DNA from: Fabrea salina
Taxonomy: Eukaryota > Ciliophora > Heterotrichea > Heterotrichida > Fabreidae
Assembly: GCA_022984795.1 (NCBI GenBank)
Contig: JALIHJ010000024.1
Location: forward strand, 62,001-126,000
Direction of reading: 5' to 3'
DNA length: 64,000 nt
Shown here: in pieces, positions 10,202 through 57,575 of the stretch
How the letters are laid out: each line of letters opens with the position of its first letter
Numbering within the stretch: position 1 is the stretch's first letter
The notes under the pieces: generated by a model
The model's input: the letters and a program-made list of their open reading frames with translations, nothing else
Database searches by the model: none
Told to the model about the DNA's origin: nothing
Position numbers and translations under genes: made by a program

Positions 10202-13200
10202 CTAAGACTTTACCAGGAAAGTCTGCACACTTGTTTTGAGTTCTTTGACATCTATTAGTTTGTGGGGTTCAAAAGAGTAGTGGGAAGTTCCTTCAAGTAT
10301 CTCTTTGGTAGACTCACTCACAGAGATTCCTCCTGGAACTCCTTCGCTTTCAATCTTGTTTGCAATCAAAACGTCGCCTCCGTATATGTCGTACCTCACT
10401 ATGTTGGTTCCAGAGATTCCGCCTATAACATCCCCAGTGTGGACTCCTATTCTCATATTAAGTTCGAATCTGTGGATTTCGTTGATTTCTTGGATGATTC
10501 TGATCATGTCCTTAGCGAACTCAATAACGTTGCAGCATTCCTGAGGGGGGTTCCTGCCTTCCCCAGTGTTTCCCAAAACAACATAGCAGTCTCCGATAGT
10601 GTGGACTTTGTAGACTTGGTGCTTCACACAGGCTTCGTCAAACTCCTTAAACATATGTGAAAGCATTCCCAGTACTTCTTCAGGAAGTTTGTCAGAAGAC
10701 CAAGAAGTAAACCCTACTATGTCTGCATACAACATGGTCATGTCTGAGAACTTGTCTGTGGTTACGTTTTCTTCTTTAAGGTTGTCGTAAACGTGAGCTG
10801 GCAGCATGCGTTTGAGAAGTGACTCTGTTTGGCTCAGTTGCTTAGTTAAGTTGGACTTAATGATGCTGAATATCCGGAACTGCTTTTCTCTGAAGTAAAC
10901 TGTAATCAGAATTATGATTAAGTAAAAGGTAGTCATTATCATGTTGAACAGGTTCAGTGGCTTTTTCGCTATTTCAAAAACAATGATTCCCAAGTAAGCA
11001 AAAAGAACTGTGCCTAAAACGTTTTTCAAGAAGAGAAAGCTATAGTGACTCAGAAGGAGTATGATGTATAAGAAAGATAAAATTCCGTTTTCAGGTGTGA
11101 AGTCGTCAATTGTAAACTTGATGATATAAACCATTAAAATCACCAGTATGAGGAGCTGAATAGTCCAAGCAAACCAAACTTTTTGCCAGTAGTTTTTCAT
11201 TATGCACAAAATACTCCCAAGAATTCCAAACCAAACCACTAACTGAACGGCTTCAACTATTTTAGCGGTTTCCATCATCAAAATATACTCAGTTAAGAGG
11301 CCAAGTATAGTAAGGACTCCTGACGAGAAAAAGATTAAGTTCCCTAGCTTGTACATAGTCAAAAAGTTTTTGATAGTTTCGACTCGGAATTCTTTTTCGG
11401 CTTGGTTGTCAACGCACTTTAAAGTGAAGAACTTCACAGTGTCAACTATTTCAGAGTTCATTCTCAAAAGCTCGTTTTCTTGTTCTATTTGCAATGTGTT
11501 GTAGAAAGAAGACCTAAACAGTCTTGCTCTGCCAAGTGAGGTGTTCATAGTTTCCAACTCGTTCTGCCCAGAATTCACTCCAGTTAAGTACTCGGGAGCT
11601 AGGTTGTTTATTCTGCTGGACCTGGACTCACAAACTGTAAAAGTTTTCATCTTGCCCTTTCCTTTAACTTCTATTTCTTTTACTTCAAACTCCAGACTTG
11701 AGTAGTCACCAAGGTCTTGATAGGTAGCATCTGAAATTTGAATGACGTTGTCATATTTCAAGGTAGAGGCCATTCTAGAAGAAGTGTTAACCGTGTCCCC
11801 GACTAAAGCAAACTGCGGTTTTTGGTAGCCTACTACACCTGCTGTGACACTGCCGGTGTTAATCCCTATTTTCAGCTTAAGAGGTTTGTTAAACATCCAA
11901 AAGATCCCTTCAGCTTCCTTCAGCATAGCTATTGCTAAGTTGACAGCACGTCTAGCCTGAGGAACCGACTTAAGTCCGATCTCAAGTTCTTTTTCGCTGT
12001 GAGTGATTCCTGAACAAGCCATGTAGGTGTACCCAACAGTCTCTATTTTAGAAACTCCATGTAGCTTGCAAAGCCTGTCGAACTTCCTGAACACCAAGTC
12101 TAAAAAAGCAGTTAGCTCTTGAGGAGAAAAGCTCTCTACTATTTCATGGAACTCACATATGTTGCAGAACACTATAGTAACTGAGCTTTGGTTTTCTGCT
12201 ATAAGTTCTTCATTTTTTAGTACCTGTGGAGCTATGAACTTAGGAAATAAGTAGTTAAGAACGTTCCTGGCTTTTTCTGTTTCTTTTTGAGTGATTTTTG
12301 TGAGTGCGTAGTTTTGTCTTCCGGAATAGTTTTGTTGGTAAGCAATGATGCCTGAACTTATGTTGATGGCTAAAAAAAGAATGTTGAAATAAAGTGTTCT
12401 AAAAACTAAGTTGTTCCCCTGGTACCCTTGCTGGCCGAAGTAAGCGTAAGAGTTAACAAACACTACTCCGAAACTTAGTATGTTAAGAGCAGTAGCCTGG
12501 TTCCAGGTTACATAAAGTGCTATGTAAAACAAAACAGGGTTCAGTGAAAATATAAGGGGAGAGATCTCTGGAATGTCCACTGCAATTCCTGTAAGCACTC
12601 CAAGAATGTATAGTCCGTAAGCATTCACTATCAAAAGAGTGTGCTTTTCTAGAATCGAACTAAAAGTGATGTATAGCAATATCACAAGCTTAGAGCCATT
12701 AATAGCTATCAGTAGTCCTATGCTTACTACAAGTTTTATGTAGGGATAAGCCCAGATTTGGAAACTTAAAGAAATTCCTAGAATCAAAAACATAGTTATT
12801 TTGTATTTCTTGAGGTTCTGGGAAAGTCTTTCGTTGGAGTAGTCTTTTTCAATTTTATCTGACTTGAACCTTAAGTTTTTGGTTTCAATCTTGAACTGGT
12901 CCTTTTGCTTTTGAATTGCTCTTTTCAAAGCAGGCTTGTAAACCTTAGAAACATCCCAAACGAACTTTTGGAGTCTACTGAAGTTAAGCTCAGCAGTTCT
13001 TAAGTACTGTTTTTGCTTTATAAGGCAAACTATCGAAGGAAATAAGCTAGTTACTAGGTACTTGGTGCTATAAGAAACCAAAAAGTTAAGACAGGACACC
13101 AGAATAGGGTAAAGAATAATTTTGGGCGAACTAAATGCAGTTTCCAAGACTCCTAGCATTTGGTAGCTATTTTGGTAAGCCCCAAAAGACCTTAAGCAAA

Positions 13201-16200
13201 GAGAAGCTATTAGCAACGCAAAGGAAACTACGTGGCCTACAATAGTTTGGAACCTAAAAGTTTCTGTTGACAGCAGAACCTTTATAGTAATTGCAAAGTA
13301 AACTCCACTTGCTAAGCAAAACCCTATCAAGTCGGAGTCTCCTGCAAAGCCTTCAGCGTTTATGACACTCTGCATTGATAGCTTTAAAACATAGAAAATG
13401 CACAAACTGTGAACAAGGGCTTCTAAGAATGCATAAGCTACTTCTTTAAACTCTAAGCGTAGAAGCCTTGAGTAGTTGTAAGCTGCAGGCCACTCTTTTA
13501 GTTGGTTTTTTGGTAAGCTTTCATCAAACAACCCAACCATCACAAGAGGGAAACAACTTGCTATGTAAATTACAGAGTCTAAAGCCCCCATTCCGTTGTT
13601 AGAGTTAAACTGCACTTCAAACCCGTAAAAGAACCCTACTGAACTCAGCAAAAAGCTCATATAAATAAACAGCACTACAGCTTTTCTAAAGTTAACTAGA
13701 TTTTTGAAGCCCTCGTGGAGAGTTATTTTTTCAATGCTACTGAAAGACTGCACACAAGCATCAGCTAAGTCAGCAAACTTAGAGTTATTTGTGTTTTCTA
13801 AAGCAACTGCTAAGTTGCACTCCTTTACCATTCCTAGCTCCCCTTCGCTCCTAAAAACACCTAAAGACACTGGCCTGAAGTCATAGTCTTTAAGTAGCCG
13901 TGCTACTTGCTTTTTCTGGTACAGTGACAAGTTGCAGAAAGTAACTGACTCAGCACAAAACAAAGCCACAGACAGGTAAACTTTAGTCTCAAAAGTTGAA
14001 AAACAAGCCTCAAGGGCTTCTCCTGTAAGTAATAAGTTGTAACTTCTGAGGCTAACTTTTCTTTTAAAGTCCACAAAGTCAATTTTGGGCTGATCTATCA
14101 CACTCGAAACTAAAGGGTGGTACTTTCTAACTAAAGTGCTTTTCTTGGAACGCTTTCTTGCAGGTTCAGGAGTTGGTTTGAGGAATTCGCTTTCACTAAT
14201 TCCACTTTCGTTAAGCGTTGTAGGTTTTTTCCTTCCAGGTCTAGTAATAGGAGTATGAACTGCTTCTTCTTCTTTATAAAACAAAAAGTTTTCTATTATG
14301 CTTTCTAACTGAAAAGTGCAATCTTGGGTAGTTTCTCCAGTTAATTCAAGTGTAGGCATTGAGTTTTCTATGATTCCTGAGGAAACTGCTGCAGACTGGC
14401 AAACTTCTTGTCTGTTTCCGCTTAAAAGCCAAATACTGACTCCAGCTTTTTTGAGGCTCTGAACTGATTTTTTGGTTTTTTCTGAAATGTTTTCTTTGAT
14501 TCCCACTGAGCCTAAGTAAACTAAGTCTTGTTCAAACAACTCAAAAACACTCTCAATACTGGCTTCTGGGTCTAATGGACTTAACTTGGCGTTTTTATAG
14601 AGCTTTAGAAACTCGTCTAAGCTTTCAGAGGACAAACTTGAGTACCCATACATAATAATTCTTTGAGTAAAAAATTCCCGAGCGTTTATTTCAATAGTGT
14701 TGTTGATAAGGGGATTGTTTTGGAAGATACTAGTCATTTCTTCCTGGGGTCCCCTTACATATAAGTAAAACATTCCACTAGACAAGTCCTCTACAACTAC
14801 TCTGACTTTATTTGAATTAGATTCGAAGCTTTGGTATGCAACTACCCTATAGAAAAACTTGTCAGGTCCAATTTGCAAGGTCACTTCTTTACGAGCTTTT
14901 AAGGAAATTGAAACTTCTAAGTGCCTTAGAAAGTCTTCCAAAAGTAGGTTTTCTTCTCTTGAGAAGTTAGGGCACTCCATTGAAACACTAGGACTGGAGA
15001 GAGCTACACACTGCACAAAAGAACTAAAGTTAGGGTCTTTTTGAACTTCTTCACTAAAGTCCAAAACCCCATCTTCCATAATCAAACTGTCTGACTCAGG
15101 CGAAATTCCTCTGTTGAGATAACTAAGTTCTTTTTTGTCGTAAAAGCTATTTATCTTGGGGTAAGTGTTTTCACCTATTGCACACATACCAATCCTTGAC
15201 AAGTACTCATCGCAAAGATTTGAGTTTTCAGTAAGTAAGTAGTCAACCCGTCCAAAGTTTTCGTTAAACTTAAGTGTGTTAAACTTGATTCTTGGCAAGA
15301 GTCCAGACAAGGAGTTAACTCTCAGGAGCTTAAGTAAATCCAATACCAAAAACAAAGGCAAAGGAACTAAATAGTTAAAGTTCAGTATTGAGTAGCACAG
15401 GTCTGACAAAAAGGAGTATGCCATGATGTTAGTTAACAGTCCTCTGATAAACAAAGAAAATGCAACTAGCAAAGCCAGTATTCCTAAAAATACTAGTGTG
15501 ATTTTCTTTAGCTGCTTTTCTAGCATTGAGGGTTTGGCTTCAGTGTGGATGTTTTTGTAGTATAGGTTGCACTCCATTCCTGTGTAAACTACAAACCCTA
15601 AGATCCACTCACACTTAACCTTAGAACCCCTAAGAAGTAGGTTTTCCTCGCTGAGTTTAGAGGCTTGCGGAAAGTTTTGAATTTTAAGCTTCCCGCCAAA
15701 CTTTGTGTAGTCTTCCACTGGCTCGTTCACCCTGACTGTAAATTTCAAGTTTGTTAATAATTGAGAAATTTCATGGACATCATTGGAGTCTAGATAAAAC
15801 TGAGTGTCTTTAACTGGCTTCTTAATAGAGTAGTCCATTCCTCCTAGGAGGTGAGACATATCTACTAAGCATTTCTGCTTGTTGGGCGCAAAACAGATTG
15901 CTATTAGGTCTGCAGGGACTTCCTCGTCTCTGTGGACAAGAACTAGATTCCCCACTCTTACTTCCTCGCAAGGCCTGGCTTCATAGGTACTTCCATTCCA
16001 AATCTGAGCAGGTGTGGAGTTAAGGTCTTTGTACTTCTGATGCTTTTTAAGGTCCTCGTAAGCGTCGATGCTTAGGTTCAGTAAAATAAGTAGTGTCAGG
16101 GGTAAAATAGTGCTGAAGCTGTAGGCTGACCATATCCCTATCACACTTGCCTGAAGTATAGTGACTAATAGTGTCCACAAATTAGCAGGCTGCTTCAGCT

Positions 16201-16417
16201 GATTTTTGATGGACTTGAAAACCAGGTTCTTAGCAGTGAATCTGGATATCTTAACTATATTCTTAGGGAAACTTGACTCCAAGTTAGGGGGAGTGCCTGA
16301 GAAATGTATTTCGCGCCAGGCAATCTCACTAAGGTTTTTGTCTGAAGAGCTTGGATTAAGTTTCATTATTATTGTAATCATAAAGTTTCTAGAGATTATA
16401 TACAAAAGTAACTGCAT
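10202..16417 (-). CDS. P4-ATPase-like / guanylyl cyclase fusion protein 1
   Basis: 2071 residues: a P4-ATPase-like half (~20-1130, about ten membrane segments), then a cyclase half with two sets of six membrane segments, each followed by a class III cyclase domain (~1405-1570 and ~1890-2060). This is the alveolate particulate guanylyl cyclase architecture. Domain C1 has FCNICEF and GYTYMAC, so it lacks both metal Asp residues, but it carries the guanine-type Glu (KIETVGY) and the catalytic Asn/Arg (DTVNTSSRM). Domain C2 has ADIVGF and TIGDCYVV with both metal Asp. One active site therefore forms across the pair, in inverted order relative to animal adenylyl cyclases. The flippase half lacks DKTGT (ENSNLCD at ~396-402). 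A second start at 16366 (MKLNPSS) is also possible and has a better context. Confidence 0.93.
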   Translation of the reverse strand: MQLLLYIISRNFMITIIMKLNPSSSDKNLSEIAWREIHFSGTPPNLESSFPKNIVKISRFTAKNLVFKSIKNQLKQPANLWTLLVTILQASVIGIWSAYSFSTILPLTLLILLNLSIDAYEDLKKHQKYKDLNSTPAQIWNGSTYEARPCEEVRVGNLVLVHRDEEVPADLIAICFAPNKQKCLVDMSHLLGGMDYSIKKPVKDTQFYLDSNDVHEISQLLTNLKFTVRVNEPVEDYTKFGGKLKIQNFPQASKLSEENLLLRGSKVKCEWILGFVVYTGMECNLYYKNIHTEAKPSMLEKQLKKITLVFLGILALLVAFSLFIRGLLTNIMAYSFLSDLCYSILNFNYLVPLPLFLVLDLLKLLRVNSLSGLLPRIKFNTLKFNENFGRVDYLLTENSNLCDEYLSRIGMCAIGENTYPKINSFYDKKELSYLNRGISPESDSLIMEDGVLDFSEEVQKDPNFSSFVQCVALSSPSVSMECPNFSREENLLLEDFLRHLEVSISLKARKEVTLQIGPDKFFYRVVAYQSFESNSNKVRVVVEDLSSGMFYLYVRGPQEEMTSIFQNNPLINNTIEINAREFFTQRIIMYGYSSLSSESLDEFLKLYKNAKLSPLDPEASIESVFELFEQDLVYLGSVGIKENISEKTKKSVQSLKKAGVSIWLLSGNRQEVCQSAAVSSGIIENSMPTLELTGETTQDCTFQLESIIENFLFYKEEEAVHTPITRPGRKKPTTLNESGISESEFLKPTPEPARKRSKKSTLVRKYHPLVSSVIDQPKIDFVDFKRKVSLRSYNLLLTGEALEACFSTFETKVYLSVALFCAESVTFCNLSLYQKKQVARLLKDYDFRPVSLGVFRSEGELGMVKECNLAVALENTNNSKFADLADACVQSFSSIEKITLHEGFKNLVNFRKAVVLFIYMSFLLSSVGFFYGFEVQFNSNNGMGALDSVIYIASCFPLVMVGLFDESLPKNQLKEWPAAYNYSRLLRLEFKEVAYAFLEALVHSLCIFYVLKLSMQSVINAEGFAGDSDLIGFCLASGVYFAITIKVLLSTETFRFQTIVGHVVSFALLIASLCLRSFGAYQNSYQMLGVLETAFSSPKIILYPILVSCLNFLVSYSTKYLVTSLFPSIVCLIKQKQYLRTAELNFSRLQKFVWDVSKVYKPALKRAIQKQKDQFKIETKNLRFKSDKIEKDYSNERLSQNLKKYKITMFLILGISLSFQIWAYPYIKLVVSIGLLIAINGSKLVILLYITFSSILEKHTLLIVNAYGLYILGVLTGIAVDIPEISPLIFSLNPVLFYIALYVTWNQATALNILSFGVVFVNSYAYFGQQGYQGNNLVFRTLYFNILFLAINISSGIIAYQQNYSGRQNYALTKITQKETEKARNVLNYLFPKFIAPQVLKNEELIAENQSSVTIVFCNICEFHEIVESFSPQELTAFLDLVFRKFDRLCKLHGVSKIETVGYTYMACSGITHSEKELEIGLKSVPQARRAVNLAIAMLKEAEGIFWMFNKPLKLKIGINTGSVTAGVVGYQKPQFALVGDTVNTSSRMASTLKYDNVIQISDATYQDLGDYSSLEFEVKEIEVKGKGKMKTFTVCESRSSRINNLAPEYLTGVNSGQNELETMNTSLGRARLFRSSFYNTLQIEQENELLRMNSEIVDTVKFFTLKCVDNQAEKEFRVETIKNFLTMYKLGNLIFFSSGVLTILGLLTEYILMMETAKIVEAVQLVVWFGILGSILCIMKNYWQKVWFAWTIQLLILVILMVYIIKFTIDDFTPENGILSFLYIILLLSHYSFLFLKNVLGTVLFAYLGIIVFEIAKKPLNLFNMIMTTFYLIIILITVYFREKQFRIFSIIKSNLTKQLSQTESLLKRMLPAHVYDNLKEENVTTDKFSDMTMLYADIVGFTSWSSDKLPEEVLGMLSHMFKEFDEACVKHQVYKVHTIGDCYVVLGNTGEGRNPPQECCNVIEFAKDMIRIIQEINEIHRFELNMRIGVHTGDVIGGISGTNIVRYDIYGGDVLIANKIESEGVPGGISVSESTKEILEGTSHYSFEPHKLIDVKELKTSVQTFLVKS

Positions 16418-21352: not shown

Positions 21353-24300
21353 ATGGAAGTAAGCTCTTCATCATCAAGTGCTTTTAGAAAATTCGACTTC
21401 CAAGGAAAAAAACTAAGCAAATCCTACCTTACAGGGAACGATTTCAAAATAGTGGATTCAACGCTTTACACTTTTGCGTCTGATTTCTTTTTGCTTCATT
21501 TTAGGAAGTATCCCTCAACTATTGTGCTTTTTTTAATCGTGCTTTGGCAGACAGCTTTTTCTAAAGAGAAGCCAGAAAGCTTTATTTACAGTCTACTGGT
21601 TCTTGGAGTGACTTTAGCGTACAGTGCTTTCAAAAGGCTGTGGTTCCTCAGAAACATTTCCAAAAAAGAACTTGAAATAAACAACCGAGAAGTGCTGGCG
21701 TGGGAAAATGACCAGTTTGTGCTCAAAAAAAGGGCCAGCCTTAAGTTGTGGGACATTGTTTTGCTTAAGGACGAACAAGAGTTCCCTGCAGACTTAGTTA
21801 TAATCGCAAACAACCCGCGCTACGAAAGTTGTCTTTTGGATGAGTACAAACTCACAGGAATAAGGGATCTTCAGCCCAAAAAGCCTGTGAAGCACATCCA
21901 AGAACTTCTTTCAAATGCTAACTTAGAAAACCTTGGAAGCTTGGTCGGTGAAGTCAGTGGAACCATTAAAGTTTCAAATCCAGACCCTGATCACGAGCAT
22001 TTCAGTGGGTTTTATAAAGCTCAAAAGTCGCCTACTTCCTTGAAACTGACTACTAAAAACTTTGGAGGTGAAGGAAGTGTGCTTAAAGAAGGTGAATGGC
22101 TGATTGGAATCATAGTTTATGCCGGGGCAGAAACTAAGTTAAGACTTAACACTCGTCAGCCTAAACTTGGAGTCTCCTGCATTGAAAGCTTCCTTAAAAA
22201 GTACTTGTTCTTCCTCATAGGATTTTTGGCCGTTTTAGTAACAGTAATGGCTGCAGTTGGCTCACCTTACAAGGATAATTTGCAGAGTGTGAACTTGTTA
22301 ATAGGGAATTCTATGCTATTAATTCCTTTTTCACTCCCTTTAGTTGTAATAGCAGTAAGGGACTTGTATGCCCTTAAAATAAACAAAACAAGCAAAGCTG
22401 TGCACGTTATAAACAGCGACTCTTTAGACTACTTGGGGAGGGCTGAGTACATCCACATTGAAAAACCTGGACTTTTAGAGTCCAGAAAGTTAATTCCAAA
22501 AGTTGCTTTTATAGAAGACAACCCAATACCTGTCCAAACTTTTGCCGATTCCCAGTTTGAAATAGAAATGATCAATATGGAACTCCAGCAGCTTGAGAAC
22601 TTCAGTACTAGCAACTTCATGCTTGCCTTAGCTATGTGTAATCAGCACACTTACAACCCTGCACTTAAAACCATCCAGAGCTCCACTATTTTGGACAAGG
22701 CCATACTTGAAACAGCTAGTAAGTTTCAAGTCCGTACACACTACCAGAACTCAGAAGTGTTTACATTTTGTTTCAACCAAGAAGAAACTGACTTTTATAT
22801 GGCAGCTCACCAAAGGTTTTCTTTAGACGACTGTAAGTTCAGAATAGCAGTTAAGAACTTAACCACAAAGCAAGTAACATTGTTTGTAAGGGGAGACCAA
22901 AAAAGCATAACTCCCCTGCTGAGTCCCCATTTCAAAGTTAAACTACAAGAAACCTTAAGAGGTTGTCAGTCAACTGGCCAAGAGCAAGTTGTTTTTGGGT
23001 TTAAAATTCTGAGTCACCAAGAGTACCAAAACTTTAAGTACATGTACAAAAGTGCCCAAAGAAGTCCTGTTAACAGAAGCGGCAGAATCAAAGGAGTCTT
23101 TGAAAAGTTCGAAAAAGACTTAAACTTGCTAGGGTTTTTAAGTTTCGAGGACAACGTTGAAGAAAAAGCCAACTCTGCTTTCCAAGCACTCACTGAAGCT
23201 GGTTTGAAGTTTTGGTTGTTCTCAAACGACAAAGAGCAAAAACTAAATGCCTCAAGAAACCAACTAGGACTGTTCAAGAACTATGAAAACCTTGTGTCAC
23301 TTAAAGAAATCAACAACAAATTTGAACTTTACAAAAAGCTAGAAAGAGCCATTGACAACCAGATTGTGTACTCAAAAGAAGAAGTGAGTGTACTCAGAAA
23401 CAACTTGCCAGGAAGTAGGTACTTAACAGAGATTGTAAGCCCAAAAATAAACCCACTGCCTAATGTAAGATACTCGGACTCCAATCTGAATGATACTCCA
23501 AGTTATATCTGCCCAAGACTTTATGACTTTTCTAACGAAGAGGTCCGACCTGAAGGCAGCAAAAACTACTCCAAATCCATAGTCCCTTTAATGATGAAAA
23601 TCAAAAACTTAAAGTCACAACTTTCCGACACCATTGGGAACGAGAATCTTAAAAATTACATTGGGGACTTTGGAATTAACCTTGAAAACAGCGTTGTCAA
23701 AATAGGGTGCAAAAGCAAAAAGTGCAGCAAAGTTCTTTACGAGTTCCTTATTTCTGGAAGCTTTGTGAACTTTTACGCCATTAAGCCTTTTTCAATAAAA
23801 CTTGTGTCTGAGATTTTCACAAGCAACCTTACAAGAAATCACATTACCTTGAGTGTGGGGAGTACTTACTCGTGGAACGGGCTGATGAAGAACTCTAATG
23901 TGTCCATCGAAATCACTGACCACTTAAGCGACACTCGAGTCTTCACTGACATCAAAGTCAAAAAGTACAGAGACCTTAAAAAGCTAGTGCTTTGCTACGG
24001 TCACTGGTTCTTGAACAACGTCTCAAAAATCATCTACCTTGACGCTTACAAAAACGCCTTGATTGTTACTGTTGTTATTTTTTTTCAGTTTTACTCTAAC
24101 TTTTCAGGTGCTTTTTTGTTTTCAAACTGGGACTTGTTTTTTTGCTGCCAGCTGTTTTTGGTTCCGGCTTTTGCAGTGGAAGGAGTGTTTGCTCAAGACT
24201 TAACGAAAGAAAAACTGTGTCAGTCCCCTAAGATTCATAAGTCTACTATTGACAAAAGCCCATTAAACATAACAAGTCTGCTTTACTACTTCTTTTTAGG

Positions 24301-27300
24301 AGTACTTCACGGGTGCATTTTGTGCTTGTTTGAACTTACTTTTGCTAGCACTATTATAAACTCAAGTGGACTTACTGAAAACCAAGAGTTGATAAAAGCT
24401 GAGTTACTTATTTCAGCAGTGCTGACTCTGCAAAGCACTTGCTTACTGCAGAGTTCCTCCATCAACATTTTAACAGTTCTTTCGCACGTTGTTTCCCTGG
24501 TAGCTTTTATTCTGGTTCTTACTCTTAAGAGCCAAGGAATACTGACTCAGGAAAAAGTAGGAGTGTTTGAGTTTATTGAAACTTCCACATTCTCAATAGT
24601 GCTGTGTCCTTGTGTTTGCTTTGTGCTGACTTACTTTTTAAAGATCATTTTGCTCCAAAAGTCCCTTGAGAACTTAAGCAGCCGAGTTTCTAAACTGAGG
24701 CAAAAGTACTACCCAAGAATAGAAACTTACAGCATGAAGTTTAGAAACAACTACGAAGTGCTTAAAAAGAAAAGCAAAAAGAACAAGTACGGAAAGTTCG
24801 ACTTCAACCAGTACACTTTGAGGTTTAGGTCGAAGCTCACAGAAAAAGACTTCAGGAAAGAAATATCCAGTTTGATGATAAAGAAGTACAGAATCATTCT
24901 TTTCTCAACTTTTGTGTTTACACTGGCTGTAAGCTTGTTAGGAACTATTGTTTTTCCTTTTTCTTTGGTAAGAGCACTAGGACTGAACTTCATTTGCCTT
25001 TTCTTCTTCTGCATGACTATTTTCAGCTTGACCAAAACTTTTTTAACTAACACTTCTAGAATAGGGGTGCTGATAAACTTAGTCTTGCAGGTGATACAGT
25101 TGTTGCTGGTTTTGTTTACGACCACTCAAAGAGTAGAAGTTCCAATGGTACTGTCTATTCTTTTTTACTTAGCTTTAGACATGGAGTGGTTGCCTATGTT
25201 TATCACTAACTTATCAAGGCTTTTAATACTTTTGGCTTACGTTTTAGAGTACTTCCAACAAACCTACGAGGGCGAAGACAAAACTCTGCAAACTGTTTTG
25301 TTCATAATCAAGCTGTTAGGAATCGAAGTTACTTCGGCCATTATGCACTACGACATTGATAAACAAAAGCGAAAAGACTTCCAGCTTAGACAAGAACTAG
25401 ACGAAGAAATTAAAAAAACCAACTCAGTGCTTACTTACATACTGCCTGAGTTTGTCAGGAAAAGAGTTAAGGAAGGAGTCAGGTACATTGCTGAAGACAG
25501 AGGAACTGTCAGTATTCTGTTCTGCAACATAAGCGAGTTCGACAGAATAGTAGCTACTTACTCTCCTCAAGAACTCACTAAGTTCCTTGACAAAACCTTC
25601 CGAAAGTTCGATGAACTCTGTGAAAAGGTAGGCATGACCAAAGTAGAAACTGTAGGCTACACCTACATGGCTTGTGCTGGCTTGATTGACAGCGAAAACG
25701 AACTTAACTCTAAACTAGCTAATGTTTCCCACGCACGGAGAGCTGTAGAAATGGCTATAGGCATTAAAAACGAGTGCCAAAGGATGTTTTTGATGGACGG
25801 AAGCGAGTTGGAAGTAAAAATAGGAATCCACTCAGGCGAAGTAGCAGCAGGAGTAGTGGGCAGTCACAAGCCCCAGTTTTCACTAGTAGGAGACACTGTG
25901 AACACAGCCAGCCGAATGGCTACAACTGCCATCAACTCAATTCAGATCTCCAAAGCTACTTACGACCTACTGGAAGACACCCAAGGACTCAACTTTAAGC
26001 CACTGATTGTGTTTGTGAAGGGCAAAGGCGACATGCAAACCTACGAACTAGAACTCAACACTCACCAAAGTACCTTAGTAGATCTTTCATCTAAGAAAAA
26101 AATCAACATTGCTAGTTTTGACTCAATTCAGCCTCTTGGGTCCGAAATCAACAGTTATACTTCCAAAAAAACAACTAGAGTTAGGGAACCAGAACCGAGG
26201 CTCAACACTGAAGCAGAAACCAGAAGCATTAGAATGTGTTCTTTGTCACTAAAAGAAACTCCTTACGAAAAACAGTTTAGATTACTAACCATTTTTAGAA
26301 AGAAAAAATCCATATACTTTGCACTAGTTATTTATTTAGTGTGCTGTTTTGGAGATCTGTTTGTGATGCTGTTGTGCATGACGATTAGAGGCCAAAACAT
26401 TGTTGGACTATTTTTGATCCAGATCTGCAAAATGTCCTTTGTAGTGGTGCTGTTATTACTTAAAAAGAAGTATTACGAAAAGTACTGGTTTGGCTGGGTG
26501 CTGCAAGGAGGTTACTTTTTGATTTACTTAATGATGCTTTTAGAGATTAGGCTTTCCACCTGGTACTCTATTGAAGTCTGGAACAGTTCGATATTCTACG
26601 ACTTGCTGATATTCTGCCAGTGCAGTCAGCTCTTTTTTAAACACGTGATTATGTCTGCTGTTTTGGCAGCTGTTCTGTACATAGGAGAATTGGCTTTAAT
26701 GGGTTTCTTTGAAACTCTAGCATTTTCAAGTGTGTTTCTGAGTATTTACTTGTCCGTAATTATAACTTCGCTTTACTACAGAGAAAAACTACTCCACGTC
26801 CACACCTTGAGGAACCAAGAAGTCCAAAGCGAAAAACAAAAAACTGAATGTCTACTCATGAAAATGATGCCTCCACATGCTTACGCCAACTTAAGAGAAG
26901 AAAACAACTTTGTAGACACTCTTTATGATGTTACTTTGATGTACGCTGACATAGTGGGCTTCACCCAGTGGTCATCCGGAAAAGAACCCATTCAAGTAGT
27001 AGAAATGCTTTCTAAGTTGTTTGATAGGTTTGACAAAGCTTGTGAAGAGTTTGGAGTGTACAAAGTCCACACTATTGGAGACTGCTACGTAGTGATGGGC
27101 AACCTTTCCAACCAAGACAGAAATCCTTCAGAAGAGTGCTTGAACATGGTGATGTTTGCTCAGAGAATAATTGAAAGCATAAAAGAAGTGAACGCTAACT
27201 ACGGAATGGAGCTAGGCATGAGGATAGGTATGAACACTGGAGAAGTAATAGGAGGAATAGCTGGAACTAACATTGTGAGGTATGACATCTATGGAGCTGA

Positions 27301-27481
27301 CGTGCTAGTTGCCAACAAAGTAGAAAGCAACGGAATTTCCGGGGCCATTTGCATATCTGAAAAGTCCAAGAACTACCTAGAGATGGCTTACCCCAGTCAA
27401 CTAAGTTTTGAGTTCCATAAAAAAGTCCCCATTCCTTCAATTTGTCAAGAAGTAAAAATCTACATTGCTAGGTTTAACTAG
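21353..27481 (+). CDS. P4-ATPase-like / guanylyl cyclase fusion protein 2
   Basis: 2042 residues, a paralogue of the fusion at 10202-16417 with the same order: P4-ATPase-like half, then two membrane-six-plus-cyclase units. C1 (~1380-1545) has FCNISEF and VGYTYMAC (no metal Asp) but keeps KVETVGY and DTVNTASRM. C2 (~1855-2020) has YADIVGF at ~1863 and TIGDCYVV at ~1907 with both metal-binding Asp. The expected P-type phosphorylation motif is replaced by EKPGLLE at ~370, and the DGET loop by LTGIRD. Probable role: membrane guanylyl cyclase with a non-catalytic flippase-like sensor or targeting module. The base before the guanine-site loop is Ser (FSLVGDTVN), where animal guanylyl cyclases have Cys. 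Confidence 0.93.
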   Translation: MEVSSSSSSAFRKFDFQGKKLSKSYLTGNDFKIVDSTLYTFASDFFLLHFRKYPSTIVLFLIVLWQTAFSKEKPESFIYSLLVLGVTLAYSAFKRLWFLRNISKKELEINNREVLAWENDQFVLKKRASLKLWDIVLLKDEQEFPADLVIIANNPRYESCLLDEYKLTGIRDLQPKKPVKHIQELLSNANLENLGSLVGEVSGTIKVSNPDPDHEHFSGFYKAQKSPTSLKLTTKNFGGEGSVLKEGEWLIGIIVYAGAETKLRLNTRQPKLGVSCIESFLKKYLFFLIGFLAVLVTVMAAVGSPYKDNLQSVNLLIGNSMLLIPFSLPLVVIAVRDLYALKINKTSKAVHVINSDSLDYLGRAEYIHIEKPGLLESRKLIPKVAFIEDNPIPVQTFADSQFEIEMINMELQQLENFSTSNFMLALAMCNQHTYNPALKTIQSSTILDKAILETASKFQVRTHYQNSEVFTFCFNQEETDFYMAAHQRFSLDDCKFRIAVKNLTTKQVTLFVRGDQKSITPLLSPHFKVKLQETLRGCQSTGQEQVVFGFKILSHQEYQNFKYMYKSAQRSPVNRSGRIKGVFEKFEKDLNLLGFLSFEDNVEEKANSAFQALTEAGLKFWLFSNDKEQKLNASRNQLGLFKNYENLVSLKEINNKFELYKKLERAIDNQIVYSKEEVSVLRNNLPGSRYLTEIVSPKINPLPNVRYSDSNLNDTPSYICPRLYDFSNEEVRPEGSKNYSKSIVPLMMKIKNLKSQLSDTIGNENLKNYIGDFGINLENSVVKIGCKSKKCSKVLYEFLISGSFVNFYAIKPFSIKLVSEIFTSNLTRNHITLSVGSTYSWNGLMKNSNVSIEITDHLSDTRVFTDIKVKKYRDLKKLVLCYGHWFLNNVSKIIYLDAYKNALIVTVVIFFQFYSNFSGAFLFSNWDLFFCCQLFLVPAFAVEGVFAQDLTKEKLCQSPKIHKSTIDKSPLNITSLLYYFFLGVLHGCILCLFELTFASTIINSSGLTENQELIKAELLISAVLTLQSTCLLQSSSINILTVLSHVVSLVAFILVLTLKSQGILTQEKVGVFEFIETSTFSIVLCPCVCFVLTYFLKIILLQKSLENLSSRVSKLRQKYYPRIETYSMKFRNNYEVLKKKSKKNKYGKFDFNQYTLRFRSKLTEKDFRKEISSLMIKKYRIILFSTFVFTLAVSLLGTIVFPFSLVRALGLNFICLFFFCMTIFSLTKTFLTNTSRIGVLINLVLQVIQLLLVLFTTTQRVEVPMVLSILFYLALDMEWLPMFITNLSRLLILLAYVLEYFQQTYEGEDKTLQTVLFIIKLLGIEVTSAIMHYDIDKQKRKDFQLRQELDEEIKKTNSVLTYILPEFVRKRVKEGVRYIAEDRGTVSILFCNISEFDRIVATYSPQELTKFLDKTFRKFDELCEKVGMTKVETVGYTYMACAGLIDSENELNSKLANVSHARRAVEMAIGIKNECQRMFLMDGSELEVKIGIHSGEVAAGVVGSHKPQFSLVGDTVNTASRMATTAINSIQISKATYDLLEDTQGLNFKPLIVFVKGKGDMQTYELELNTHQSTLVDLSSKKKINIASFDSIQPLGSEINSYTSKKTTRVREPEPRLNTEAETRSIRMCSLSLKETPYEKQFRLLTIFRKKKSIYFALVIYLVCCFGDLFVMLLCMTIRGQNIVGLFLIQICKMSFVVVLLLLKKKYYEKYWFGWVLQGGYFLIYLMMLLEIRLSTWYSIEVWNSSIFYDLLIFCQCSQLFFKHVIMSAVLAAVLYIGELALMGFFETLAFSSVFLSIYLSVIITSLYYREKLLHVHTLRNQEVQSEKQKTECLLMKMMPPHAYANLREENNFVDTLYDVTLMYADIVGFTQWSSGKEPIQVVEMLSKLFDRFDKACEEFGVYKVHTIGDCYVVMGNLSNQDRNPSEECLNMVMFAQRIIESIKEVNANYGMELGMRIGMNTGEVIGGIAGTNIVRYDIYGADVLVANKVESNGISGAICISEKSKNYLEMAYPSQLSFEFHKKVPIPSICQEVKIYIARFN

Positions 27482-32440: not shown

Positions 32441-32737
32441 ATGAGCGGGTCAGACTCTTCACCTAACTTCAAACCTCTGCACTTAATTCCAACACCTGCA
32501 ACTTCCAGATTCAAGATAATGGTAAGGTTTACTTAGAATCCTGAATTAAGAAAAAGACTAACACTCGCTGCTAAAAAGCGGAAAAGTCACACACCAATGC
32601 ATTCCAAAACAAAACGAGCAGTTAAGATCCCCCCTGCTCCTAGTGTCCGGAAACTTATGACTCCGAGTTTAGCTAAAGCTATGAGTAAGCCACCTACTGT
32701 CATACACTGCTCTCCTGAGTCATTGCTAAAAAAGTGA
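32441..32737 (+). CDS. Small basic protein, 93 aa, one intron
   Basis: Two exons, 32441-32521 and 32537-32737, ending TGA. 93 residues, strongly basic (RKRLTLAAKKRKSH, KTKRAVKIPPAPSVRKLM), possibly nuclear or nucleic-acid/microtubule binding. No domain was recognised. The gene is supported by a clean 15-nt intron of the same type as the others and by its position: 74 nt from the divergent surface-protein gene and 2 nt from the converging myosin stop. Confidence 0.78.
32522..32536 (+). other. 15-nt intron (small basic protein gene)
   Basis: GTAAGGTTTACTTAG, phase 0, in-frame TAG if retained, A at position 10. Removal keeps the frame open for 66 more codons. Confidence 0.88.
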
Positions 32738-36091: not shown

Positions 36092-37477
36092 TTACGTATG
36101 CTTTTTTTCAAGTGTCTTTTTAAGCATTTGGTACACACGTCCTGTGTTTTTTGCCCCAAGTTTGTTGTCCCTAACAAATCTATGGGCTAAACTAAACAAG
36201 TCGTCGCCTTCTCGGACTTCACAACTTGCAGACTGACCCCCAGGGATCTCAAAGTCCATCTTCAGAAGAAGTGCCCTTTTGTCAGTGCTTTGTACTAGGT
36301 TTGTGATGTGGGTGAGTATTTCTTGGTACTGCTCTTCGTCTATAGTTCTTTCTTTGCAGAACTCTTTAGCTACTTCTTGGGGAAACTCTCCTTCGTAAAC
36401 AGGAATTAAATTTTCTTCTCCACTGATTTCTACTTTTACGTGCCCCAAAAGTTGTTTTCTGTGCTTAGCTCTGTACTCAGTTAGCAGTTTAGGAGGTTTC
36501 ATAGATGCCACTAGTTCTTTTTGGTGTTCTTCCTGGACTTTTTTAACACTTTGTTTGTATTTAGCTAGTTCAGTTGCTACAGTGTTCATGTACTCTGTGA
36601 CTTTGGTTTTTATTACTTCACTTAAGTTTTGCAGGGTGTTCACACTTACGTTGGGGTTTACTTGTTGCAAAACTCTTTTAGCAACTTCGTAAGAGTTGTC
36701 TCCATTTGAAATGTGTTCTTGGACGGATTGTCCGTCTACATAAACTTCAAGTGTCAAAATGGGTTTGTGCAGTTTGTTTTTGACTGTTCTGAGAGGGGAC
36801 ACCTTAACTCTAGGCTTGGGTTTGGGTTTATTAACTTGGAAGCCTTCTTTGGTATAGTTGGCTTTGACTACAGGGGCTTCTTTTTTGCCCTGTATTTTAA
36901 ACTGGTTTACTTTTTTTAGTTTAACAGGAGTTTTTAGGGCTTGGGGTTTTAGAAAGTTATCTGCAGGTGCAGTGTAAGTAATGAAGCCCTTTTCTTCAGG
37001 TGAAGAATCCAAATCTAGAGTGCATGCGAGCCTACTAAATTTACTTTCTGAACTTTCTTGGTTAAGAACTATTGAAATTAGTTTTTCGAGTTCACCTAAG
37101 TTAGTTTTTAGTTTGGTTGAAGTTCTTAAGTACTCACAAAAGTAGTTTTCTCTGATACAGTTGAGTTCTTGGTTGCTGACCTTTGAAGGCAGGTCACTTT
37201 TGTTTGCAAGCAGGATTAAATTTAAGTGAGGCATGTTGGGCAACCAACTAAGTAAACAATACTAGTTAAGTATTCTTTGGAAAGCTTGCTTTGAAGAAGA
37301 ATCAAATAAAAGCAAAACCAAATTGCACACTTCAAATTCTGCATCCTCTGAAACCTGGAGTTGAGCACCAAGCCTCTCTGACCAGCCCCTTTCAGAGTCC
37401 AGAACTTGTAGTAGTGTTTTCTTTCCTGAGTCTGAATCGCCTGCTACGATTACTAACTTAGCTCTGTCACTAAACAT
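36092..37477 (-). CDS. Rab-like GTPase fused to a repeat-containing tail, one intron
   Basis: Two exons on the minus strand (37477-37263 and 37247-36092) give 456 residues. The first ~115 form a small GTPase domain: P-loop GDSDSGKKT at 13-21, LLLFDSS, and ANKSDL as the guanine-specific NKxD motif. The domain is short and lacks an obvious switch II DxxG. The remaining ~250 residues hold three related units (LTLEVYVDGQSVQEHI..., VKVEISGEENLIPVYEGEF..., LKMDFEIPGGQSASCEVREG...), each a two-strand hairpin, then EVAKRF-like, then a helix. The combination is not one I can name. 19 nt from the divergent gene. Confidence 0.8.
37248..37262 (-). other. 15-nt intron (Rab-like GTPase gene)
   Basis: GTATTGTTTACTTAG on the minus strand. 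It interrupts codon TA|T (Tyr); if retained, TA+G makes a stop. Joining gives QRILNYWLPNMPHLNLILLANKSD-type GTPase continuity. A at position 10. Confidence 0.93.
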
Positions 37478-53536: not shown

Positions 53537-54124
53537 TTATTTTGTTTTGAGTTTGTTAAGTGTAGATCTGAGTTTGCAGACTTGGTTTCTTAAGGAATGA
53601 ACTTGTTTAAGTTTGTTTTTCCATAACTGTTTTAAGTGCTTTTCTTCTTGGTTAAATTCAAGTTGGGTTTGCTTTCTTTTGGAGTTTAGTTGTTTTTTGT
53701 TTTGTTCTAACTGAGCTACTAGGTGTTCTAGGCGTTTTTCTACTAAGTCTATGCCTTCTAGGTTGTATTTTAGTGATTCTAGGCCGTGTTTGTTTAGAAT
53801 CTCCAGATTCAGAGCTTTGATTTGGTAGTGTCCTAAACACACTTTGCTTTTCTCTAGGGTGTTCCAGTCTGAAATACTTTGGGGGACTTTGTAAGCTTCT
53901 AAGCCTTTAAGTGGTCCTCCAGTGGACCTTTTGTTTTCTAAGTTAGGTTCTGGCAAGTCTTCTAGGTAGTTTGGTTTCTCAAAGTTAGCTTTTTCTTGTT
54001 CAATAAGAGTTTCCACAGTTGCTTTTTCTTGGGAACTGCATTCTTCTACGTAAGGAAGGCACTGAACTAAGTGAGAATTGGGGTTCCTGTAAACTAAAGG
54101 CACGTTGTACTCTAAGCACTCCAT
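53537..54124 (-). CDS. BCAS2: Pre-mRNA splicing factor SPF27/BCAS2
   Basis: 195 residues. It begins with the family pattern LPYVEE...VETLIEQEKANF and then NYLEDLPEP, followed by the coiled-coil second half (KALNLEILNKHGLESLKYN, QLEQNKKQLNSKRKQTQLEF) with the expected NLE...LMSQHG-like turn. BCAS2/SPF27 is a core subunit of the Prp19 (NineTeen) complex of the spliceosome. Length matches (human 225). It is divergent from the chimeric RING gene by 22 nt. Confidence 0.92.
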   Translation of the reverse strand: MECLEYNVPLVYRNPNSHLVQCLPYVEECSSQEKATVETLIEQEKANFEKPNYLEDLPEPNLENKRSTGGPLKGLEAYKVPQSISDWNTLEKSKVCLGHYQIKALNLEILNKHGLESLKYNLEGIDLVEKRLEHLVAQLEQNKKQLNSKRKQTQLEFNQEEKHLKQLWKNKLKQVHSLRNQVCKLRSTLNKLKTK

Positions 54125-54146
54125 AGATGGCTTTATGTGAACTAAT

Positions 54147-55466
54147 ATGGATTGCTTAAGAAAGAAGTGTAAGACTGTTATTTACAAGTGCGAGTGTGAG
54201 TCAGTTTACCTCTGTAATGACCATATTGTAGAGCACTTGTCTGTTTCTAAGTCTCACAAAATCGTTCATATCGATGGACAGGAGCTGGTTGGCAGCTTTG
54301 AAGAAGTTTGCAAGCTAATATCTTCTCGGCAAACAGAACTGCTCAGCCAAGCTGATCTTTTGGTAGAGTACACGGTCAATATTTCTTTGAGCTTAGTTAA
54401 AGAACTCGAGGATGTGAAAAGAAAATACTTGGACGTAGTTAACCAATTGAAAGAAACTGGGTTTAAGCAGGAACACCTAGAGAGTCTTCGAAGGGGATAT
54501 AAAGAAGCCCAGAAACCTAATTCATTAAAGCAATATTTCAAAAGTGATCAAATTGCTTTTTTGTTTGACTCTGTGAAGACAGGAACCGCTGTGCCTTTGG
54601 ATTCTGAGTTGCAAGAAAAAGGAGTGATTAGGGAGTTTGCTGAGAGACAAAAGGAAGCAGACAAAGAAATAAGAGCCAAAGAACAAGAAATTGCAAGGTT
54701 TGAAAGAAGACCAATGGAAACAAGAGAATGGCGCAAAGATGAATCTGTTGGTATTTTTAGAAGATCTCGTAAAGAAGAATCCAAAGAAGTTAAATCCTTA
54801 ATTCAAAGATCTGAGAAAAGGAAGGTTTCTGAGTCCTCTAGTTTCAAATTTAGAAATCAAATTCCAGAACCCACCAAACCTGAACCCCAAATACCACGAT
54901 TCCAGAGATCAGGATCCCAAAGACCCCAAGAAAGCAAGTTTGGAGGACTTAGAAGAAAAGAACCAGAATTTGACCATGATTTCTTTGATCCCTTGGTTTC
55001 CCCAGACTCATTTGTTCTCTGTCTAGTGTGCGACTACTGCAATGAGCTCTGCACCACAACTTGCAACCTAGAGTGTACTCATAATTGCTGTCAAGACTGC
55101 TTCAGAAAGCGGAATCATCAATGTCCTTTTTGTTCCCTTGAAATCCTTTGTTTTGTGTGTAGTCGCCCTGCAGATGAGAAATTATCCGATTGTAGTCACT
55201 TTGTCTGTGAAGATTGCCATACCAACTCTAGACACTTGTCTAATAAAAAAAATTGCTTATGCTGCATGGAAAGCAAAGGAGGGCAGGTCAATAAAAACGT
55301 AAGTGACTGGGGCATAGAGAAGTTCAAGAAATGGAGAAAGACACTGAAGTTCCACAAAGGAACTTACTGCCCTTCATGCTTAGGCATTCAAATATTTGAG
55401 AAAACCAAAGGCAATTCTGTAAGATGCCAACTAGGATGCAACACATCCTTTTATCTAGACTCATAA
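54147..55466 (+). CDS. Chimeric B-box / eIF3a-tail / RING-RING-IBR-like protein
   Basis: 439 residues in three parts. Residues 1-~130: a B-box-like zinc finger (KCKTVIYKCECESVYLC, then H and HK) with a coiled coil. Residues ~157-274: a copy of the eIF3a tail (ARFERRPMETREWRKDES, then SLIQRSEKRKVSESSSFKFR and RPQESKFGGLRRKE), almost identical in nucleotides to eIF3a in places. Residues ~290-440: two RING-like fingers (CDYCNELCTTTCNLECTHNC...CPFC and CFVCSRPADEKLSDCSHFVC...CLCC), then an IBR-like CPSC...RCQLGC. Possibly an RBR-type E3 ubiquitin ligase. Codon use is AT-richer (more GAT, AAT, TGT) than in neighbouring genes. Confidence 0.85.
   Translation: MDCLRKKCKTVIYKCECESVYLCNDHIVEHLSVSKSHKIVHIDGQELVGSFEEVCKLISSRQTELLSQADLLVEYTVNISLSLVKELEDVKRKYLDVVNQLKETGFKQEHLESLRRGYKEAQKPNSLKQYFKSDQIAFLFDSVKTGTAVPLDSELQEKGVIREFAERQKEADKEIRAKEQEIARFERRPMETREWRKDESVGIFRRSRKEESKEVKSLIQRSEKRKVSESSSFKFRNQIPEPTKPEPQIPRFQRSGSQRPQESKFGGLRRKEPEFDHDFFDPLVSPDSFVLCLVCDYCNELCTTTCNLECTHNCCQDCFRKRNHQCPFCSLEILCFVCSRPADEKLSDCSHFVCEDCHTNSRHLSNKKNCLCCMESKGGQVNKNVSDWGIEKFKKWRKTLKFHKGTYCPSCLGIQIFEKTKGNSVRCQLGCNTSFYLDS
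54618..54970 (+). repeat. eIF3a tail segment inserted in the RING gene (copy B)
   Basis: Same orientation and same reading frame as in eIF3a. It starts near REFAERQKEADKE (eIF3a: VEFAKKQKKIDKE) and ends near FGGLRRKEPE. The nucleotide match is high enough to mean a fairly recent event. Confidence 0.85.
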
Positions 55467-55514: not shown

Positions 55515-57575
55515 ATGGCTTTGAAACTAAGGAGACTCTTTTCCACAATTAACAGATTTAGGTTTGACGAGAACGCCCACATAAACGAAAACGCAACCTT
55601 TGCAATAGTGAACTTTACTTAGAACCAAATAGTCAGCAAAGAAAAAAAGAATTACAAAGTCTTTGAAAAGAACATAGAACCCCAGTACCAAAGATTCATG
55701 AAAATGCTTAAAAGACGCAGTATAGAGTCTACCAGTTCAATCCCTGAAAAACTAGGTCCTTACCTCTACTACTCTTCCTACAACCCCGACTTTAAATGCT
55801 ACCGCAAAAGCCCCGAAGGCCAGGTAGAACTGGTTTTTGAATTAGACGACATTCCTGAACTGAAAAAACTCTCCCCCAAACACAAACAAGGCATAGACTC
55901 CCCTGTAATTAGAATCAGTGACGACCACACCAAAGTAATTTATATTGCTGACATCTACATGAACGACCGCCCTGTTTTAGGTGTCAAAGACCTTAAAACC
56001 GGCAAAGTAATAGTAAGTCCTACTTAGGACTCCATCAAAGAAGCTAGCAACGCTGAGTGGAGTATTGACTCAAACTACTTCTACTACACTGTTCCAGACC
56101 ACAACAACAGGCCTTGCAAAGTAAAGCTCCACAAACTGCTCTCTAGCGACAAAAAAGACACCACTGTTTTAGAAGAACCCAACGAAAGCTTTTACTTAGA
56201 CTTGTCAATGACTAAAGACAAAGCCTACACAGTTATTTCTTCGCAGTCCCGCACTTCTTCAGAACTCTTTGTGATCGACCGCAAAACTAAGAAACTCAGA
56301 CAAGTCGTTCCTAAGTCCCCCGACTCTAGGTACTTCATAGAGCACAACAGAGGCTACTTTTACCTAGTTACAAACAACCAAGCTCCTGACTTCAAAATGG
56401 TCAGAGTGCCTGAAGGAGGCAGTTTGCACCAACAAGAAGAATTCATTCCTTGCGAAGAAGGTTTGTGCATTGACGAAGTAGACATGTTCAGAGAGTACAT
56501 TGTAATATACTGCAGAGACCAAGGAGTCCCCTCAATCAGGGTCTATGACATCAAAAAGGGCTCTTTCCACAAAGTAGAACTTCCTGGAGAAGTGTTTTCA
56601 ATTGAACCTGGAATCAACATGGACTACTACTCCAAAGAAGTAAGGGTCATTTACTCTTCACCTTTAGTTTACGAAATGACTCTGGCCTACAACATGAACT
56701 CAAAAACCCTCCACAAAGTCAACGAAAGGAAACTCCAAGGAGCTCCTCTTTACCCTGAAAAGTTTGTTGTGAAACGAGTAAACGCAGTTACTCACGACGG
56801 GTTAGAACTCCCAATTACTCTTTTCCACAGAAGCGACTTAAAAAAAGACAGAAAAAACAAAATGCTACTTACTGGCTACGGAGCCTACGGAACCAGAGCA
56901 GACCACAAGTTCAGGTACTCCCAACTCACGGCTGTGGAAGACGGCTGGGTGGTGGCCACTCCTCACGTGCGGGGAGAAGGCGAAAAGGGCGTGGAGTGGC
57001 ACAAAGCAGCTACTAAGCACCTTAAGTACAACTCCTTTGCAGACTTCATAAGTGCAGCTTCTTTTCTGGTAAAAGAGGGGTACTCACAGCCTAAGTATAT
57101 AGGCGGATATGGAACCTCTGCAGGGGGATTGTTGCTAGCCCAAGCAGTTAACTTGAAACCCAACCTTTTCAGCGCAGTGGTGCTTGAGGTCCCCTTTGTA
57201 GACCCTCTTTCAGTGATGCAGGACGAAAACTCACCCTTAACCATTCCTGACCGGGACGAGTGGGGAGACCCGCTTGCAGACCAACAAATCTTCGACGAAA
57301 TGAGGGGTTACTCGCCCTACGAAAACTTGTCAATCAATAAGTACCCCAAAATGCTTATAACTGCAGCAACAAACGATCAAAGAGTTCCTTTGTGGAGTGT
57401 TTTGAAGTACGTGAAGAGGCTTAGAGAAAGGAAGTTGCCTGACGACTTTTGCATCTGCGAAAACAACGTAGCAGTTGACATCCAAGAAACAGGGCACTTT
57501 GGAGAAGGCAGCCTTGAGTCAGAAGCTGTTGTATGGGCTTTCCTCAACACCTTTATAAAAACTCCTGTTTTTTAA
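55515..57575 (+). CDS. Oligopeptidase B-like serine peptidase (S9A), mitochondrial, two introns
   Basis: Three exons (55515-55607, 55623-56012, 56028-57575) give 676 residues. The N-terminus MALKLRRLFSTINRFRF looks like a mitochondrial presequence. Residues ~60-410 form the propeller-type N-domain. The C-domain has the S9 hydrolase core: YGAYGTRADHKF, HVRGEGEKG, nucleophile Ser525 in GYGTSAGG, Asp611 in TNDQRVP, and His651 in ETGHFGEGS. Oligopeptidase B cuts peptides after Arg/Lys. Complete triad and normal length (~680). Convergent with CEP164 (3 nt between stops). Confidence 0.93.
55608..55622 (+). other. 15-nt intron 1 (oligopeptidase gene)
   Basis: GTGAACTTTACTTAG, phase 0 after codon 31. 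In-frame TAG if retained. It starts GTG rather than GTA, the only one of the seven to do so. A at position 10. Confidence 0.9.
56013..56027 (+). other. 15-nt intron 2 (oligopeptidase gene)
   Basis: GTAAGTCCTACTTAG, phase 0. In-frame TAG if retained. Joining keeps the propeller strand LKTGKVIDSIKEASNAEW continuous. A at position 10. Confidence 0.93.

Follow-up and report, generated by a model that had tools for sequence, protein, structure and literature searches.

The chimeric reading frame and its zinc-finger parts

The window, by which we mean the whole 64-kb stretch of Fabrea salina DNA analysed here, contains a chimeric open reading frame (F in the following) that shares its central part with the 3′ part of an eIF3a gene (Table 1). 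Its product would successively comprise a Cys/His B-box-like N-terminus, a long predicted helix, the eIF3a-derived linker, two RING-type patterns and C-terminal Cys pairs. The limits of the shared block given in Table 1 come from a codon-blind alignment and agree with those of the original prediction, which had placed the edges in F at 54618 and 54970. The starts of F and of a divergent BCAS2-like gene (53537-54124, minus strand) are separated by 22 bp (54124-54147), a distance at which the two promoters must overlap, provided that both starts are correctly placed.

Table 1. Positions in the window of F, of the eIF3a gene and of their main features
Feature	Position	Strand	Description
eIF3a gene, presumed donor	7357-10191	+	944 aa
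Donor segment in eIF3a	9616-10113	+	498 nt, residues 754-919, about 45 kb from the copy
Chimeric ORF F	54147-55466	+	439 aa, open reading frame spanning both block edges
Degenerate B-box-like Cys/His cluster	54153-54257	+	motif match (regular expression), found nowhere else in a six-frame translation of the window
eIF3a-tail copy in F	54618-54968	+	351 nt, F residues 158-274, in frame
Longest exact run shared	54917-54947 (eIF3a 10062-10092)	+	31 nt, same frame
First RING-type C3HC4 pattern	55020 or 55029 to 55133	+	residues 292 or 295-329
Second RING-type C3HC4 pattern	55149-55265	+	residues 335-373
CxxC...CxxxC, zinc-ribbon-like	55368-55439	+	motif match

The N-terminal part of F had been described as a B-box, a term that now appears overstated. 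The Cys/His cluster is a motif match, and Pfam searches at E <= 10 with residues 1-68 and with residues 1-158 yielded no B-box model (at E-values above about 0.1, the majority of matches are removed by the HMMER filters). When the whole of F was compared with Pfam at E <= 1, a sub-threshold match to RICH was the only one obtained, and the NCBIfam search gave no matches. The sub-threshold Pfam matches of the N-terminal part (RICH, PDZ_6, Baculo_VP39 and DUF7713) were taken as chance. The helix, located at residues 51-103 in a low-confidence model, is compatible with a coiled coil, which is weak evidence. AlphaFold models produced from the single sequence were unusable, with a mean pLDDT of 37 for the full F protein and of 35 for its C-terminal 165 amino acids.

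The proposed RING part has stood up better. Downstream of the block, F carries two complete C3HC4 ligand patterns, though their profile scores are under the curated cut-offs. The two patterns are separate, and all five overlapping hits to the C3HC4 spacing, in six-frame segments totalling 50,886 residues, fall in F. Residues 266-341, which hold the first pattern, match RING2 chains of the PDB (best E = 9.4e-5); the first RING searched alone in Pfam gives E = 2.3 and 8.5 bits. The second one matches the Pfam model zf-C3HC4_3 with E = 8.1e-4 and 19.6 bits, under the cut-off of 27, and a PDB search with the C-terminal 111 amino acids of F gave a best E of 0.011. The second RING was also considered as a relative of ZNF598, a ribosome-collision ligase, and this candidate was rejected, the match (E = 0.0094, below the cut-off) being weaker than that to the generic RING model (E = 0.0008).

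Codon usage gives a less favourable picture of the C-terminal part of F, whose coding score in its own frame is -0.014 vs 0.076 and 0.074 in the other frames; F as a whole has the second lowest score among 30 ORFs. As the C-terminal part is Cys-rich, we gave more weight to the ligand patterns than to this poor score, which nevertheless still counts against it. We infer from the ligand patterns that the product of F is most likely a RING-type E3 ubiquitin ligase. TRIM proteins exhibit the order RING, B-box, coiled-coil. F is similar to these E3 ligases in combining a B-box-like cluster, a helix and RING patterns. It differs from them by a reversed order, in which the B-box-like cluster is followed by the helix, the linker and the two RING patterns, and by a B-box that lacks profile support.

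Homology with the eIF3a tail and probable direction of copying

Given the abundance of Lys, Arg and Glu in the block, a similarity due to composition could reasonably be suspected, and a codon-shuffle control was performed. The best of 500 shuffles scored 39.2 bits against the masked window, vs 201 bits for the observed pair. Within the window, blastn aligned 54770-54968 with 9912-10113 (82.2% over 202 nt, E = 1.9e-53) and 54655-54762 with 9695-9808 (78.6% over 117 nt). It is thus confirmed that F contains part of the eIF3a tail, copied in frame and on the same strand, as first noticed from about 30 identical nucleotides and several shorter runs. Five exact runs of at least 14 nt (31, 21, 18, 16 and 14 nt) are shared, and each of them keeps the frame. 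When gap and mismatch costs were varied over 36 alignment settings, the 3′ edge of the block stayed at 54968 throughout, and the 5′ edge ranged from 54568 to 54655, mostly between 54616 and 54655. The alignment leaves 147 nt of the eIF3a segment without counterpart in F. Outside the block, the N-terminal and C-terminal parts of F gave a best E of 0.2 against eIF3a.

An assembly or annotation artefact could in principle create such an arrangement, and we regard this explanation as very improbable. Of the 342 aligned nucleotides, 59 are different between the copies (about 17% divergence), so that the block is not a misplaced piece of the eIF3a locus and a simple mis-assembly of eIF3a reads would be excluded. 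Moreover, both edges of the block are crossed by one ORF.

The identity of the eIF3a gene is supported by the Pfam family PF22591 for the TPR-like/PCI region of eIF3a (E = 4.1e-72) and by eIF3a chains in the PDB with E-values down to 2.7e-63; the PCI domain (PF01399) is detected with E = 5.1e-4 and 20.6 bits, just under the cut-off of 22. The alignment with the PDB chain 5a5t_A extends over residues 9-808, the last part of which (755-808) is of low complexity. Beyond residue 808, no significant match was observed in known eIF3a chains, and the 297 residues encoded by the 3′ end of the gene, searched alone, gave no match at E <= 10. From the reach of this alignment, the block would correspond to the end of the spectrin-like region followed by a basic tail that is unrecognisable in known eIF3a. 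It omits the last 25 residues of the protein. The block continues a recognisable eIF3a in one gene, and F resembles eIF3a in the block only, which favours eIF3a as the donor.

Base composition points in the same direction. The original prediction attributed to F codons richer in AT than those of its neighbours. The GC3 of F is indeed lower than expected from its amino acids (0.367 vs 0.416, z = -2.3), but a z below -2 was also obtained for two of the 29 other coding stretches tested, and the shift is mainly located in the block, where it is donor-like. The GC3 of the block in F is 0.230 vs 0.331 expected (z = -2.3), and z reaches -1.2 in F outside the block (-0.35 in the N-terminal part and -1.36 in the C-terminal part). 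In the eIF3a tail (165 codons), GC3 is 0.209 vs 0.344 expected (z = -3.8). For comparison, the lowest raw GC3 among 738 windows of 115 codons taken from the 29 other coding stretches is 0.230. In eIF3a, the low GC3 starts upstream of the block, the best suffix beginning at residue 661 and the best segment covering residues 706-846 (z of 4.65 vs a maximum of 4.18 in 60 permutations). The best low-GC3 segment in F corresponds to residues 170-369 and extends past the block. That the drop begins upstream of the block in eIF3a and recurs in F mainly within it again favours eIF3a as the donor. The copying would thus have proceeded from eIF3a to F.

One could also imagine that the block is a dispersed coding repeat, which eIF3a and F would each have received from a third source. 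Such an origin would agree with the unusually low GC3 of both copies for their amino acids and with the lack of significant matches to known eIF3a chains past residue 808. However, the drop in GC3 begins upstream of the block in eIF3a and looks like a property of the gene end rather than of an insert; for this reason, we do not favour taking it as a sign that a foreign block was inserted. Moreover, only two copies are present in the 64 kb of the window, a third one being found neither by blastn (E <= 1e-3) nor by tblastn (E <= 1). A dispersed repeat thus appears quite unlikely. Apart from the block, blastn matched only two stretches of eIF3a itself, 9001-9035 and 9676-9710, which form an internal repeat of 35 nt (E = 8e-5).

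Searches of viral contigs with the F and eIF3a proteins detected no relative, and neither did searches of bacterial and archaeal contigs with eIF3a or with a 30-base pattern taken from the block; the first of these sets is virus-only, and neither is informative on the spread of the gene. Rfam and tRNA searches of the window gave no match. In the literature, the titles and abstract openings of the matches listed mention no gene combining an eIF3a tail and a RING.

Age and frame of the block

Two alignments of the block were used to estimate its age, with 114 and 112 codons, amino acid identities of 68% and 65% and nucleotide identities of 83% and 84%, respectively. The NG86 dS is 0.23 (bootstrap 0.13-0.36) with the first alignment and 0.15 (0.06-0.27) with the second one. 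Other methods gave 0.14 (LWL85) and 0.30 (YN00) with the first alignment and 0.16 (YN00) with the second. These low values, 0.14-0.30 depending on the method, suggest that the copying event is fairly young. The description of this event as recent was thus roughly right, provided that recent designates a low dS and implies no clock.

The NG86 dN is 0.19 in both alignments, and the dN/dS ratio, 0.81 (0.48-1.53) with the first and about 1.3 (0.68-3.8) with the second, is indistinguishable from 1. The differences between the two copies are distributed over codon positions 1, 2 and 3 as 24, 19 and 16. The eight synonymous and 36 nonsynonymous codon changes agree with a neutral simulation with 65 substitutions, which gives 7.9-10.2 and 37.6-40.5. 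The chance of a stop-free block under neutrality, 0.04-0.08 if the 65 substitutions are all placed on the F branch and 0.15-0.25 with 32, is not decisive.

The length differences between the copies speak against pure decay. In the codon-blind alignment, the seven gaps (21, 12, 9, 9, 27, 66 and 3 nt) are all multiples of three, eIF3a being longer in each case. If one gap in three were in frame by chance, the probability of this result would be about 0.0005, and about 0.012 for the four recurrent gaps (9, 27, 66 and 3 nt). The gaps are exclusively multiples of three in 25 of the 36 settings, namely in all 18 with an opening cost of 9 or 12 and in seven of the 18 with a cost of 5 or 7; in the remaining 11 settings, which all have a low opening cost (5 or 7), some gaps have other lengths. 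The conservation of the frame through several length changes is therefore supported, in an alignment-dependent manner. Together with the near-neutral dN/dS, it suggests that the frame was maintained during an amino acid drift that affected one copy or both.

These data also bear on the possibility that F is a decaying chimera, either a young pseudogene or a non-functional fusion, that has so far escaped stop codons. The near-neutral dN/dS, the weak coding score of the C-terminal part and the shortening of F by 147 nt over the block would all fit with such a decay. It is more difficult to reconcile with 439 open codons that include complete RING ligand patterns, and with gaps that all keep the frame in most alignment settings. 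We consider that F is unlikely to be in decay.

Origin of the gene and possible role of its linker

The features by which a young chimeric gene can be recognised, i.e. an identified donor with low dS and an open, in-frame ORF, are found together in F. In our opinion, F is probably a young chimeric gene in which an eIF3a-derived linker is inserted in frame and whose product would be a RING E3. A segment of about 500 bp, belonging to the 3′ part of eIF3a, would have been duplicated, probably by ordinary ectopic repair or recombination at the DNA level, and the copy would have been inserted into another gene located 45 kb away, in phase with its reading frame and with unchanged orientation. There, it may have become a basic linker between the N-terminal Cys/His cluster and helix and the C-terminal pair of RING-type fingers. 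The eIF3a piece was originally thought to join two unrelated zinc-finger parts; a single insertion into the linker of one gene explains the zinc-finger flanks equally well.

The event had also been qualified as exon-shuffling-like, and our analysis does not support this view. Neither the eIF3a ORF nor F contains a frame-breaking intron, and no intron candidate is located at the 3′ edge of the block. A loose match to the 15-nt intron format at 9608-9622 in eIF3a straddles the 5′ edge; such matches are common (three in eIF3a), and as this one ends with GCAG, and not with the ACTTAG of the accepted introns, it was not taken as an intron. A partial-gene duplication is a simpler explanation than exon shuffling, which is conceivable but less likely.

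Introns are present in the window. We observed 15-nt introns at 56013 (GTAAGTCCTACTTAG), at 37262 on the minus strand (GTATTGTTTACTTAG) and at 55608 (GTGAACTTTACTTAG), each with an A at position 10; the first two are among 25 intron candidates chosen by format. Their length is compatible with a heterotrich, and they match the description of Stentor introns (PMC9505925). The 15-nt format occurs 15 times in the window vs 6.3 expected, a number reached in none of 100 shuffles. Stop codons in 30 of the 32 ORFs (two omitted) are TAA (21), TAG (6) and TGA (3), the ORFs having been defined with TGA as a stop. In Blepharisma, UGA encodes Trp (PMC9942806); given that ORFs of up to 2071 codons are free of TGA, the standard code fits the window better than the Blepharisma code.

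Young chimeric genes, including cases of ‘partial duplication with recruitment’, are documented in C. elegans, Drosophila and yeast (PMC3449122). As in the cases described in that source, part of a gene was duplicated into a new context and a new ORF formed with sequence absent from the parent. F differs from them in being located in a gene-dense window with 15-nt introns, none of which is evident at the block edges. In Tetrahymena, exon shuffling has been described for 90-bp LRR exons that are mostly separated by phase-2 introns (PMC6564038). In both instances, new ciliate genes are made from pieces of old ones, but the block of F, unlike the LRR exons of that description, has no evident exon boundary. 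Gene fusions were also documented in Tetrahymena with Gene deFuser (PMC3143110), and the abstract of that work names no fusion involving eIF3a, in contrast to what is seen in F. We view F as a tidy example of gene birth, a known kind of event that is ordinary more than indicative of a new mechanism. In F, a piece of eIF3a, which is a core translation factor, would have contributed to a new gene with low dS, and the recognised introns of the window are 15 nt long; this suggests that coding pieces can recombine without exon boundaries.

What the borrowed linker could do is more speculative. In human eIF3a, F760 is an eIF3b contact in the spectrin domain (PMC4320536). This residue in 5a5t_A aligns with L726 of our eIF3a, and the block starts 28 residues later, at residue 754, so the equivalent of the eIF3b-contact residue has no copy in F. 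As the block begins downstream of this contact, it is improbable that the F protein binds eIF3b in the manner of eIF3a. The suggestion of the original prediction that F could compete for eIF3a partners is further weakened by the omission of the last 25 residues of eIF3a and by the near-neutral divergence. This divergence argues for a spacer role, and the linker may be a flexible, positively charged spacer that would be disordered. The predicted charge of the block is about +12 in both copies, and a charge kept in this way could perhaps allow some leftover affinity for RNA or ribosomes.

In an extension of this suggestion of partner competition, the block would serve as a functional decoy or as a targeting module, which would bring a RING ligase to eIF3 or to the 40S subunit and either compete with eIF3a or mark initiation complexes for ubiquitination. 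The strongly basic character of both copies, the 31 identical nucleotides kept at the 3′ end of the block, the presence of RING patterns and the weak, below-cut-off resemblance of the second finger to the ZNF598 RING model are all in line with this idea. It nevertheless seems improbable to us, considering that the block begins after the eIF3b contact and stops short of the eIF3a end, that dN/dS is near 1 and 147 nt of the eIF3a segment are missing from F, and that the generic RING model is a better match than ZNF598. A bolder version, in which a RING ligase would have gained the eIF3a piece as a targeting arm and would act at the translating or initiating 40S, as a lineage-specific regulator of translation born from a coding fragment moved without introns, is a doubtful proposition at this stage. 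If the linker of the probable chimeric gene still binds ribosomes or RNA, this could be a way for a ubiquitin ligase to acquire a target in translation.

Several minor observations can be added on the window. Both copies of the tail contain the sequence GTTTGGAGGA(T/C)TTAG (10083-10097 and 54938-54952). This sequence is in frame and, when read through, encodes part of KFGG(F/L)RR; it conforms to the format of the 15-nt introns (GT, A at position 10, TTAG). In a prolyl-oligopeptidase-like gene (55515-57575, plus strand), the frame is restored by removing the 15-nt introns at 55608 and 56013, each of which holds an in-frame TAG. The intron-like sequence GTAAGGTTTACTTAG at 32522-32536 (plus strand), between listed ORFs, hints at a short unlisted gene. 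Finally, the window harbours a pair of large paralogues in opposite orientation (10202-16417, minus strand, and 21353-27481, plus strand) in which a phospholipid flippase is joined to guanylate/adenylate cyclase domains; they exhibit 67% and 70% identity over 476 and 191 aligned nucleotides, respectively.
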